From Empedobacter stercoris (GTDB taxonomy: Bacteria > Bacteroidota > Bacteroidia > Flavobacteriales > Weeksellaceae): DNA of 64,000 nt. Positions 51,816 to 55,593 of the stretch are shown here, piece by piece (within the stretch, counting starts at the first letter, position 1; every line of letters starts with the position of its first letter). The notes beneath the pieces were generated by a model, which was not told where the DNA came from, did not search any database, and saw only the letters and a program-made list of their open reading frames with translations. The DNA is taken from assembly GCF_025244765.1 (NCBI RefSeq), contig NZ_CP104209.1, positions 1,612,001-1,676,000 of the forward strand, written 5' to 3'. A program made the translations under genes and the position numbers.

Positions 51816-51851
51816 TCTTTTCCGAAAAATAAAAAAAACGACTTGTATTAG

Positions 51852-51888
51852 ACTGCCCCAAAAAAGTTAGACACTTTTGGGGGGCAGT
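51852..51888. repeat. Hairpin with IS3-like terminal sequence, after alaS
   Basis: ACTGCCCCAAAAAAGT and ACTTTTGGGGGGCAGT form a 16-bp stem with two mismatches and loop TAGAC. The CTGCCCC...AAAGTTAGACA pattern resembles terminal inverted repeats of IS3-family elements, from memory. It may be a solo IS end, a small palindromic element, or simply the alaS terminator, since it lies 37 bases past the stop and T-rich sequence follows. No transposase is nearby. Confidence 0.45.
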
Positions 51889-51909
51889 GTATTTTATCTC
51901 GCTTTTTTA

Positions 51910-53916
51910 TTAGTCTTTAATTCCATTAAAAATATATTGTAAAATTGGATTAATTTCTGGGTTTTCAAGATGTTTCTTGAAAATTTTTGTGTAATACTTT
52001 GGTTTATTAATCATTCTTCGTTCTACTAACTCATCAATCGTATCAATATATTCTACTGATGTTTTACCAATTAATAAATTATCCAAAGAACGTCCTTGAT
52101 CAACATAGTTCAAAATTGTTTTTAAACCTTTTAAATAAAGCGCATCTTTCGTGAAACCACCACCTCGATACACACGAGTTGACAAATAAAAAGCATCTTC
52201 TGCTTGCATTTTATATTCTTCCATCAATGTCATAAATGTTTCGTTGAAAGATTTTCCGTTTGTCAACATATGAACTGCCATTACGCGTAAACCAAGTTCC
52301 CTCAATCGGCTATGATTAATAGAATCAGAATAATATTCACTTAAAATCGCTAAACCTTCTTGCGTTAACGTATTAACAGGTAAACCAATGCTAAATATTT
52401 TTAATGGTTGATCCAATGCATTCATCGTCGTCACCATGTGTACACCAATTTCGTGTTCAATTAAACCATTTGTAAAACGTTTATCGAATTTTACACCACG
52501 CTTAATTACCACTTTTTTCTTGCTGTTAATCACAAGCGCTTTTGATGCAATATCATCCGAAACTTCAATATCAAACTTGAAACCGTAATCATTTGTTGCA
52601 TTTCTAAATAAATTTACAACTTCTTCTTCGGTATAATCACCTTGTTTATCCATCCTAAATTCAGGACAATACAGAATGAAATTCGCATTTTCGATGTCTT
52701 TTTTAGTTGGTTCACCAAAATAACGCAACGAATTGTACAAGAATTTATCTGTCCCAAGATTTGCCAACAAATCTACCTTATCAAAATAGGCATTGATAGT
52801 ATTCATGTACATGTTTTGAATACTGATATCATTGATTTTTTCGACTTTAATATTCGACAATTTTCGTTTAAATTCGAATGGATCAATATTTAGAGGATTG
52901 TACTTAAATTGAGGTTCGTATGTATATTTAGAAGCCAAGAATTTCTTTTTTTCAAACTCTAAGTTTATTGGATTGATAACACTTAACAATTCAAAATTCT
53001 GAACCAATTGATACAATTGTTTGTCAATTTTCACCAAATCAGATTCCAATTCGTTGTGCAGAATATTCACTTGTTTTGATCCTACTTTATAGGTTGTTTC
53101 TGTTTTTACGAATTCATAAGCATGATTTAAAATTGCCGATTTAAACCCTTCTTTTATTTGATTGATAATTTCGGGGAAAGATTCTCCCGTCAATTCATCA
53201 CAATAAATTTTAGAAACCTCTGTCGCTAATACCAATGTATTTTTGAAATTAGTTGTCACAAATTCTAACAAATAACCACGTCCGTAAAAAACATCGTTTA
53301 TAGCCGAATAATTATGAATATTTTCTATTTCAATATTTGCCAATTCATCGCGCCAACTTTCAACATATTTTCCATAACGTTCGTTATCGATACGTTCAGC
53401 TCCAATATTAAAAACAGGAACTGGACGATCCCAACGCTTCCAGTTGTAAGAATGAATATCGTATACCAAACACGATTTAAACTTAGATTCGAGCTTACTG
53501 ATTAAAGCTTGTAAAACTTCGTAAAAAGCATGGTGTTTTGCACTACTTTTTTGTTTTTGAGAAATAGATAAAGGCTCTTTCCAAACTTGTTTTCCCCAAG
53601 CTTCTTCGTACACAGCATTTTCTGGACCACGGTTTAAATCGTATTCAAATCGAGAATCACAACCTTGAATTAAGATTGGGAAAGTTTCTACAAACTCGGC
53701 TGTATGAGGATCTTCTTCGTACCAACGCTCGTAATTACTCAATAAACATTTTTCTCGAATATCTTCGCGCATTTGTCCACCATCGTGAATGGCAGCACAA
53801 ACGTAAGGAATGTATTCGTCAATTTTTATTTTGAATGAGTCGTCTTCTGCATAAGCTTCAAATACAATTTCGTTCTCAATATTATCTAATATTTGCTGTA
53901 TACTTAAGGATTTCAT
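51910..53916 (-). CDS. N-formylglutamate-amidohydrolase-like / DUF1704 (QEGLA) metallopeptidase fusion
   Basis: The 668-residue protein has two parts. Residues about 35-260 resemble N-formylglutamate amidohydrolase: AIHDGG (42-47), CDSRFEYDLNR (86-96) and YDIHSYN (152-158). Residues about 290-640 are the DUF1704 domain, with a HExxxH zinc motif HEIGVH (488-493) followed by TQEGLAI (518-524), where the Glu is a likely third ligand or catalyst. DUF1704 proteins are called flavohemoglobin-modulating QEGLA proteins, and related eukaryotic MATCAP enzymes remove C-terminal Tyr from tubulin. A carboxypeptidase-like role is inferred. No signal peptide is seen, so it is cytosolic. It overlaps the ATP-grasp gene by 4 bases (ATGA). 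Confidence 0.85.
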   Translation of the reverse strand: MKSLSIQQILDNIENEIVFEAYAEDDSFKIKIDEYIPYVCAAIHDGGQMREDIREKCLLSNYERWYEEDPHTAEFVETFPILIQGCDSRFEYDLNRGPENAVYEEAWGKQVWKEPLSISQKQKSSAKHHAFYEVLQALISKLESKFKSCLVYDIHSYNWKRWDRPVPVFNIGAERIDNERYGKYVESWRDELANIEIENIHNYSAINDVFYGRGYLLEFVTTNFKNTLVLATEVSKIYCDELTGESFPEIINQIKEGFKSAILNHAYEFVKTETTYKVGSKQVNILHNELESDLVKIDKQLYQLVQNFELLSVINPINLEFEKKKFLASKYTYEPQFKYNPLNIDPFEFKRKLSNIKVEKINDISIQNMYMNTINAYFDKVDLLANLGTDKFLYNSLRYFGEPTKKDIENANFILYCPEFRMDKQGDYTEEEVVNLFRNATNDYGFKFDIEVSDDIASKALVINSKKKVVIKRGVKFDKRFTNGLIEHEIGVHMVTTMNALDQPLKIFSIGLPVNTLTQEGLAILSEYYSDSINHSRLRELGLRVMAVHMLTNGKSFNETFMTLMEEYKMQAEDAFYLSTRVYRGGGFTKDALYLKGLKTILNYVDQGRSLDNLLIGKTSVEYIDTIDELVERRMINKPKYYTKIFKKHLENPEINPILQYIFNGIKD

Positions 53917-54893
53917 GCTTTAAATTCTTTATATTTCTCCAATAACATTGATACAATTTGTTTCTGTATCTCGTTGTTATTGTTTACATTGTTATGAGGG
54001 ACAATTCCCCCAGGACTTACGACATTTAATTCAACCATTTTTCCGTTAATCAAATCGATTCCGCAAAAATAAATTCCATCTTCATTTAATTGTTTCCCTA
54101 TTTTACGGCACAATTCTAATTCATGCTCACTCATATCATGTTTAATTGCAGAACCACCAGCCGAAATATTAGAACGGTGATCACCATCTGCAGGCACACG
54201 CATAATAGCGCCAATAGGTTCTCCATTAATCACAATTGCACGAACGTCTCCTTTTTCTGCACCTTCAATATAATTTTGACAAATAATAGGTTGAGAAATT
54301 CCAGAATGATTGACATAAAAATCGCAAATCGAGCTTAAGTTACCAATATTTTTTCGTTCGAAAAGAATTACACCTTTACCTCCCATTCCATCTAATGGTT
54401 TGATGATAAATTTTTCGAATTTATTTTCTTCAACAAACGATTTAATTAAATCGATATCTTTCGTAATAAGCGTTTGAGGAACAATTGTTTCCTGACCATC
54501 ATCAAAAGAAGCAGCGTATATTTTGTTATTTGCTTTACGTAAACCAGAAATTTTATTGACGAAAAAAACTTTATCTTCGATCAATTCTAACATGTTCAAT
54601 AAAAGCGGATCAATTGGTGGATCGGCTCTCATAAAAATCATATCAAACTCGGTTAAATCTTTGATACTACTTTCAAATTTCATGGTGTGATAAAATTCTA
54701 CACAATCCGTTGTATCTGTAGTAATCATCTTTCTGCAGTTACCTACAACTTTGCCTTTGGCAATAGAGATATCTTTTTTTGTTAAATAGGATACTTCAAA
54801 ACCACGATCTACGCATTCTTTAATAATTCGCATAGTGGTGTCTTTTCCTGGTTCAACCTTGTCCCAAGGATACATTACGAAGCATATTTTCAT
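53913..54893 (-). CDS. ATP-grasp ligase, glutathione synthetase-like
   Basis: The 326-residue protein has the glutathione-synthetase ATP-grasp layout: N-terminal domain starting MKICFVMYPWDKVEPGKDTT, ATP-binding K165-P in IIKPLDGMGGKGVILF, and metal/substrate residues D280, E288 and N290 in GIDLINGKMVELNVVSPGG. It joins a carboxylate and an amine using ATP. No gshA gene is in the window and the coupling to a DUF1704 peptidase is tight (4-base overlap), so I doubt that glutathione is the product. It could add an amino acid to a peptide or protein. Upstream is a 180-base gap. Confidence 0.85.
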   Translation of the reverse strand: MKICFVMYPWDKVEPGKDTTMRIIKECVDRGFEVSYLTKKDISIAKGKVVGNCRKMITTDTTDCVEFYHTMKFESSIKDLTEFDMIFMRADPPIDPLLLNMLELIEDKVFFVNKISGLRKANNKIYAASFDDGQETIVPQTLITKDIDLIKSFVEENKFEKFIIKPLDGMGGKGVILFERKNIGNLSSICDFYVNHSGISQPIICQNYIEGAEKGDVRAIVINGEPIGAIMRVPADGDHRSNISAGGSAIKHDMSEHELELCRKIGKQLNEDGIYFCGIDLINGKMVELNVVSPGGIVPHNNVNNNNEIQKQIVSMLLEKYKEFKA

Positions 54894-55077: not shown

Positions 55078-55593
55078 CTATTTATTTCGTAAACGATCAA
55101 TTGTTTCCTGAACTTTTGGGTCATCAGCTTTTACACTGTAGTAATTTGCTATTTTTCCATTTTGATCAAGAACCAAATATCTCGGTATCCAATTTAAATC
55201 AATCCCTGTGCCAAAATTACCCTTCCAATTGTTTCCTAAGTAAAAGTGTTGACCCTCAATTTGATATTTTTCAATTCCATTTTTCCAAGCATCTTCAGAC
55301 TTATCCATTGAGAGATAAACAAATGTTACATCAGGATTTTTTTCGTGTAATTTTTTCAACGAGGACATATTTTTGATACAATCTCCACACCAAGTTGCCC
55401 ATAAATCTATCAAAACAATTTTACCTTTATTGTTCGAAACAATTTTTTCGATGGTTACTGAATTTCCTTCCAAATCAACTACGCTATCTTGTAAAGCTGC
55501 TGCAGGAAATTCAGTTTTCATTAGTGTTGGAATTTTCTGAGAAAAGGCATTCATCCCAACAAATAATATTAAAACGCTAATTATTTTTTTCAT
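55078..55593 (-). CDS. TlpA-like periplasmic thiol-disulfide protein
   Basis: The 171-residue protein has a signal peptide (MNAFSQ, to about residue 19) and a thioredoxin fold with active site WCGDC (C69, C72). The TlpA/AhpC-type insertion follows (VTFVYLSMDKSEDAWKNGIEKYQI), then the cis-Pro in NWIPRYLVLD. It probably keeps periplasmic thiols reduced or serves cytochrome maturation or a stress response. The CGDC active site is less common than CGPC but known in TlpA relatives. It is a single-gene unit on the minus strand. Confidence 0.88.
   Translation of the reverse strand: MKKIISVLILFVGMNAFSQKIPTLMKTEFPAAALQDSVVDLEGNSVTIEKIVSNNKGKIVLIDLWATWCGDCIKNMSSLKKLHEKNPDVTFVYLSMDKSEDAWKNGIEKYQIEGQHFYLGNNWKGNFGTGIDLNWIPRYLVLDQNGKIANYYSVKADDPKVQETIDRLRNK

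Follow-up and report, generated by a model that had tools for sequence, protein, structure and literature searches.

A conserved pair of a GshB-like ATP-grasp ligase and an FG-MATCAP hydrolase in Empedobacter stercoris, possibly a make-and-break module for a glutamate-centred amide

In eukaryotes, the tubulin tyrosine ligase (TTL), an ATP-grasp enzyme, is opposed by MATCAP, a newly found tubulin carboxypeptidase which in humans is a stand-alone protein with neither an N-formylglutamate-amidohydrolase-like (FG) domain nor a ligase partner, and the prokaryotic relatives of which have no assigned substrate. The genes for TTL and MATCAP are not known to form a linked pair, and bacteria have no tubulin tail of the kind on which these enzymes act. 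An ATP-grasp enzyme and a peptidase are likewise combined in RimK/RimB and in RloA-RloB-RloC of Pseudomonas, with a link to hypo-osmotic stress or salinity (PMC12239564; PMC10308900), the peptidases RimB and RloA being retropepsin-like aspartic proteases. Here we describe a gene pair of Empedobacter stercoris (contig NZ_CP104209.1, positions 1,612,001 to 1,676,000 of the forward strand, a stretch of 64,000 nucleotides referred to as the window) in which a ligase of the GshB fold, called GRASP in the following, is followed by a fusion of an FG domain with a MATCAP (DUF1704/QEGLA) domain. In contrast to the Rim and Rlo systems, the ligase is GshB-like and its partners are two domains of the zinc-hydrolase type. 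While the component families are already known, the conserved module as such appears undescribed; no description of a conserved ligase-FG-MATCAP module was found in the open-access full texts searched, although surveys of ATP-grasp neighbourhoods may have listed the association earlier.

A preliminary description of the window, made from its letters alone, had reported a ligase gene overlapping an FG/DUF1704 fusion gene by ATGA, and HEIGVH and QEGLA motifs in the DUF1704 half. Both reading frames and both motifs were located as follows.

53913-54893, minus strand: GRASP, GshB-fold ATP-grasp ligase, 326 amino acids (PF02955 171.5 bits, PF02951 90.1 bits)
51910-53916, minus strand: fusion of an FGase-like and a MATCAP (DUF1704/QEGLA) part, 668 amino acids (Pfam and NCBIfam matches)
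53092-53916, minus strand: N-terminal FG domain of the fusion, residues about 1-275 (PF05013 50.2 bits)
51934-53028, minus strand: C-terminal MATCAP/DUF1704 metallopeptidase domain of the fusion, residues 297-661 (PF08014 335 bits)
52438-52455, minus strand: HEIGVH zinc motif, residues 488-493, aligning with HEIGTH of human MATCAP
52348-52362, minus strand: QEGLA motif, residues 519-523, aligning with human TEEGLA, with E520 as the presumed third zinc ligand
53913-53916, minus strand: ATGA stop/start overlap of the ligase and fusion genes (TCAT on the plus strand)

The association of these domains was followed in 40 genomes of relatives, including 13 of the genus (that of the window counted) and 12 others of the family. 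A GshB-like ligase was regarded as strong at PF02955 scores of at least 167 bits, PF02955 matches in the other genomes of this sample reaching at most 75 bits. MATCAP was present in all 13 genus genomes, in none of the 12 other family members and in two more genomes of the order, and MATCAP, the strong GshB-like ligase and the FGase occurred in exactly the same 15 of the 40 genomes. Among 392 Bacteroidota genomes, the window's own excluded, 21 possess MATCAP and 21 the strong ligase, with both found together in 19 (Fisher p 4e-28, uncorrected for phylogeny). The ligase adjoins the MATCAP locus in 75 of 80 loci from GTDB genomes, in 21 of 23 loci of the phylum sample, in 7/7 genus loci and in 15 of 16 proteobacterial loci, and in 77 of the 80 an FG either forms part of the MATCAP protein or lies next to it. 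Hosts of the module include Bacteroidota, Pseudoalteromonas, Photobacterium, the Sinorhizobium replicon pSymB, and metagenome-assembled genomes of Verrucomicrobiales and Deltaproteobacteria. The genetic tie between the ligase and the two hydrolases, for which the preliminary description had suggested a survey of co-occurrence and fusion, is thereby far stronger than the local sequence could show, and the ligase-hydrolase pair is a real conserved system, not a local accident.

It could be argued that unrelated enzymes share one operon, with GRASP having one job and FG-MATCAP an independent stress-related one, for example in flavohemoglobin expression as in the name of TIGR02421. MATCAP indeed exists without GRASP in a few genomes and in a separate, second gammaproteobacterial subfamily, at none of the seven loci of which (L183, L184, L185, L186, L199, L200, L201) a ligase or FG was found beside it. 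On the other hand, the genes adjoin one another in Bacteroidota, in Gamma-, Alpha- and other Proteobacteria and in Verrucomicrobia, their order varies and they co-occur almost perfectly. This makes a shared pathway hard to avoid, and we consider independent functions very unlikely. The proteins of the stand-alone subfamily are approximately 430-700 amino acids long and outscore the module MATCAPs on the Pfam MATCAP model. As no further gene conserved around the module across phyla was found in the neighbourhood comparison, the module looks self-contained; a Na+:dicarboxylate symporter gene lies nearby in 47/80 loci, and this gene, like those for rhodanese-type and TerB-like proteins, occurs mainly in loci of Flavobacteriaceae and was left out of the core. 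The only phage relative of the fusion to be found was a weakly matching MATCAP in Pseudomonas phage Y1.

Two architectures can be distinguished. In type A the order is GRASP, FG and MATCAP, the latter two being fused in the window, for example, and separate in Flavobacteriaceae, and in type B an FG precedes a long MATCAP protein and a second type of GRASP; both ligase types occur together in two genomes (L045, L046). The extra N-terminal domain of the type-B MATCAP is a degenerate FG that has lost its catalytic segments (hhalign probability 97%, E 1e-10), and type-B loci usually retain a separate, intact FG. Most simply, the FG-MATCAP fusion would be old, and type B would carry a dead FG copy while the separate FG does the chemistry. 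The TGA stop codon of GRASP shares bases with the ATG of the fusion on the minus strand, and this four-base overlap recurs in 6 of 7 measured genus loci and with 4 fused proteins among the 80 loci, the remaining loci showing overlaps of 8-68 bases or genes within about 112 bases; in the window, the overlap may couple translation of the two genes. Tandem type-B GRASP paralogues are present at L187:1445-3549 and L191:1838-3980, and one L191 copy, which is devoid of several otherwise invariant ATP-grasp residues, may be inactive. Two apparent gene models were discarded. The 914-amino-acid fusion in L056 is an out-of-frame reading frame in high-GC DNA, for which Pfam matches the ligase domains only, MATCAP being encoded by a 691-amino-acid reading frame of its own, and the start of the 704-amino-acid FG of L198 is a spurious extension.

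Losses of GRASP and FG tend to be coordinated. Neither GRASP nor FG lies beside MATCAP in the Bacteroidota loci L043 and L138 and in L106 of Glaciecola, and the Vibrio fusion at L150, with no adjoining GRASP, has the FG motif DxHSYN changed to DMYAYN, so that ligase-less loci tend also to be without FG or to have lost its motif. As FG is present with no ligase in view in L089 and L126, and the ligase without FG in L092, the link between ligase and FG is strong, not absolute. The loci L054, L055 and L057, in which no FG is visible, share one gene family close by, the L054 member of which is an AstE/AspA-type amidohydrolase, which points to N-acyl-glutamate or N-acyl-aspartate chemistry.

With respect to family assignment, the MATCAP domain exceeds the curated cut-offs of PF08014 (335 versus 27 bits) and of the QEGLA model TIGR02421 (378.8 versus 338.65), Pfam placing it at residues 324-661 and TIGR02421 at 297-651. 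The FG domain, which Pfam places at residues 37-192, exceeds the cut-off of PF05013 (50.2 versus 28.9 bits) while staying below that of the HutG equivalog TIGR02017 (13.6 versus 278.75); it shares fold and conserved H/E/D/DxH residues with HutG-type FGases and differs from them in being fused to or beside MATCAP, not in a histidine-degradation operon. AlphaFold models gave a mean predicted local distance difference test (pLDDT) of 90.5 and a predicted template modelling score (pTM) of 0.87 for GRASP, and a mean pLDDT of 90.0 with a pTM of 0.60 for the fusion, the latter value leaving it uncertain how its FG and MATCAP parts are arranged towards each other. The MATCAP part superimposes on human MATCAP (7z5g; Z 25.9, root-mean-square deviation 2.7, 294 residues), with which it shares the HExxxH...E metal site, and the FG part on a Ralstonia FGase (2q7s; Z 25.2, root-mean-square deviation 2.3, 238 residues). 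HEIGVH and QEGLA show little or no variation across 33 aligned fused proteins, and among 20 diverse bacterial MATCAP domains HE...H and QEG are invariant and a downstream R...RG..KD..YL.G block is conserved as well. In FG, an alignment of 13 fused and separate sequences shows H44, E67-E68-D69, S88-R89, D93, N95-R96, D153 and H155 to be invariant; a query by sequence found no solved structure for FG, the metal ligands of which rest on conservation and fold, not on a residue-level alignment to 2q7s. The GRASP family retains R86, K125, K160, R210, R233 and N283 of Escherichia coli GshB. A non-functional zinc site or ATP-grasp pocket, which would have spoken against the preliminary description, was not observed; the metal-site residues of both hydrolases are conserved, as is the ATP-grasp core, so that each of the three catalytic units appears competent.

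The best fold match of the GRASP model is E. coli GshB (1gsa; TM score 0.85/0.88), with RimK second. GRASP carries the GSH-S_N and GSH-S_ATP domains and is the sole GSH-S_ATP protein in the whole Empedobacter genome. It scores just above one GshB equivalog model (NF003573, 275.4 versus 272), which together with the label GshB given to the ligase in published work on relatives (PMC10308900) could suggest that GRASP is a true GshB and that the hydrolases recycle glutathione (gamma-Glu-Cys-Gly) or its conjugates. However, GRASP fails the other GshB models (TIGR01380, 240.3 versus 299.05; the subfamily model NF009110, 317 versus 408), and a maximum-likelihood tree separates the module ligases from GshB, placing them in two clades of their own (bootstrap 85 and 95). 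Where the preliminary description had noted no gshA nearby and had therefore found plain glutathione synthesis without support, the search was widened to the whole genome (estimated to be 100% complete), and neither of the glutamate-cysteine ligase families PF04107 (GCS2) and PF04262 was matched there, in agreement with that judgement. Among 27 module genomes, PF04262 is absent from all and PF04107 from 20; in the other seven, some GCS2 matches may represent YbdK-type carboxylate-amine ligases. In two Bacteroidota that lack MATCAP, a GshA-like reading frame of 452-454 amino acids lies near a GshB-like gene scoring 228-231 bits, and Sinorhizobium meliloti possesses a chromosomal gshB besides the separate module ligase on pSymB. 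Given the missing gshA families, here and in most module genomes, and the additional chromosomal gshB of S. meliloti, glutathione synthesis by the module is unlikely, and a scheme in which GRASP as a true GshB makes glutathione and the hydrolases recycle it is extremely doubtful. The pSymB ligase (L151:10648-11787) adjoins an FGase-QEGLA gene and corresponds to no listed gene in the PLSDB table.

GshB and RimK lengthen glutamyl chains, and FGase and AstE cut N-acyl-glutamates. Human TMCP1/MATCAP and TMCP2 strip C-terminal residues from the acidic, Glu-rich tails of tubulin and also deglutamylate, a carboxypeptidase activity on an acidic C-terminal tail being known only for these two human enzymes (PMC10499314). 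As all relatives of the module components, GshB, RimK, FGase, AstE/AspA and human TMCP/MATCAP, work on glutamate-type amides, a glutamate-centred amide is their common denominator. We tentatively propose that the gene pair is a self-contained, cytosolic make-and-break module for such an amide, the most likely product being an N-acyl-glutamate conjugate or a small, acidic glutamyl peptide, an assignment that we favour and hold to be possible. The co-inheritance and adjacency of the three domains, the lack of further genes conserved around them, the coordinated losses, the usual retention of an intact FG in type B and the frequent dicarboxylate symporter gene nearby speak for such a module. In chemistry of the GshB/RimK type, GRASP would use ATP to phosphorylate a carboxylate of a Glu-containing donor, and the acyl phosphate so formed would be joined to an amino acid. 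We infer that both hydrolases act on this product: the MATCAP domain would take the C-terminal residue or residues off again, and the FG domain, or in some relatives the AstE/AspA-like enzyme instead, would hydrolyse the amide on the other side, at the N-terminus or side chain of the glutamate, so that the balance of the two genes would set the product level.

Several observations weigh against this proposal. Family and fold likeness does not fix a substrate. The GRASP pocket is not simply that of GshB, because each of the 45 module proteins has G in place of T288 of the E. coli enzyme, and Y (type A) or N (type B) in place of D9. MATCAP is sometimes retained without GRASP and FG, so that the three components are not strictly interdependent, and the low-salt induction described below comes from one species and is correlative. 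Finally, a rhodanese-type gene is part of the cluster in 35 of the 80 loci, which would fit a sulfur-containing product. This gene also lends itself to a one-way biosynthesis, in which GRASP ligates a second amino acid to a glutamate protected by an N-acyl group, FG deprotects and MATCAP trims the intermediate to a natural product or thiol; FGase and AstE are de-acylases by family, and the tandem GRASP paralogues of L187 and L191 would suit two successive ligations. Yet no acyltransferase, transporter or other tailoring gene is conserved with the module across phyla, and retention of MATCAP alone would be odd for a late trimming enzyme, which leaves such a pathway unlikely. The rhodanese-type sulfurtransferase (e.g. 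L048:6370-7209) is found mostly in Flavobacteriaceae, between GRASP and FG.

A physiological context for the proposed make-and-break module is suggested by Photobacterium damselae, in which the adjacent genes RS17020 ("GshB", 38-fold) and RS17025 ("QEGLA", 27.5-fold) are among those most strongly induced at low salt (1% versus 3% NaCl), RS17020 being taken as glutathione synthase by its authors (PMC10308900). As the two are consecutive RefSeq tags and a congeneric locus (L152) carries the module, we infer that they are module genes. In Vibrio vulnificus, VV2_1203 (COG3930) and the adjoining VV2_1204 (glutathione synthetase) are both specific to clade 2 (PMC3091676). The P. damselae induction and the precedent of the P. 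aeruginosa operon of RloC (ATP-grasp) and RloA (peptidase), which is tied to hypo-osmotic stress (PMC12239564), recommend osmotic adaptation as a sensible starting point, and in at least one relative the product may be used in adaptation to low osmolarity.

The same precedent, the 52-fold induction of RimK itself in the low-salt data set (PMC10308900), the second rank of RimK among the fold matches and the similarity of the MATCAP domain to human MATCAP are also consistent with a protein writer-eraser cycle, in which GRASP, likened to RimK acting on ribosomal protein S6, adds Glu or other amino acids to the C-terminus of a host protein, MATCAP removes them and FG removes an N-acyl or side-chain amide. 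GRASP is nevertheless nearest to GshB, a small-peptide ligase, and remains below the cut-offs of the RimK family (TIGR00768, 99.4 versus 143.4; PRK10446, 48.8 versus 331), even though the Pfam RimK domain model matches it (72.6 versus 21). Moreover, the cluster contains no conserved candidate target gene, and the substrates of the FG and AstE relatives are small N-acyl amino acids, so that we regard protein modification as somewhat unlikely. Such a cycle would be a counterpart, not a homologue, of the tubulin pair. Of the parallel to TTL and MATCAP drawn in the preliminary description, the eraser fold stands, whereas the ligase is GshB-like with RimK next, and no TTL family model was among its Pfam matches at E up to 0.1; the eukaryotic ligase belongs to a different ATP-grasp family, and an FG domain is missing there. 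A still broader version, a widespread bacterial tagging cycle in which a protein or peptide receives a C-terminal amino acid from GRASP, MATCAP removes this residue according to the osmotic state, and the eukaryotic detyrosination carboxypeptidase derives from a bacterial, ligase-linked eraser family, is quite improbable.

If a GshB-like ligase and an amidase of the FGase/AstE type are tightly linked to one bacterial branch of MATCAP, the ligase product, offered to the eraser, can guide the hunt for the substrate of that branch. Furthermore, the label glutathione synthase beside QEGLA genes is probably wrong, with consequences for existing interpretations of transcriptomes (PMC10308900).

At the locus itself, no Rfam match and no excess of promoters or terminators was found. 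Directly upstream of GRASP on the same strand lies a thioredoxin/ResA-like gene (55078-55593), which keeps its place in all genus loci read and not beyond the genus. The genes for alaS and the fusion converge, and between their ends a 42-base palindromic scar is located at 51850-51891 (TGCCCC...GTTAGACA...GGGGCA), a 32-mer of which occurs 25 times in the genome (with at most 3 mismatches). Nine other copies that were read, which sit after A-rich stretches resembling gene ends, mark an element on its left side and precede a shared open reading frame start (MTRKVKYG...) that looks like an IS3-type transposase; the scar in the window, without the open reading frame, looks like the remnant of such an IS end.

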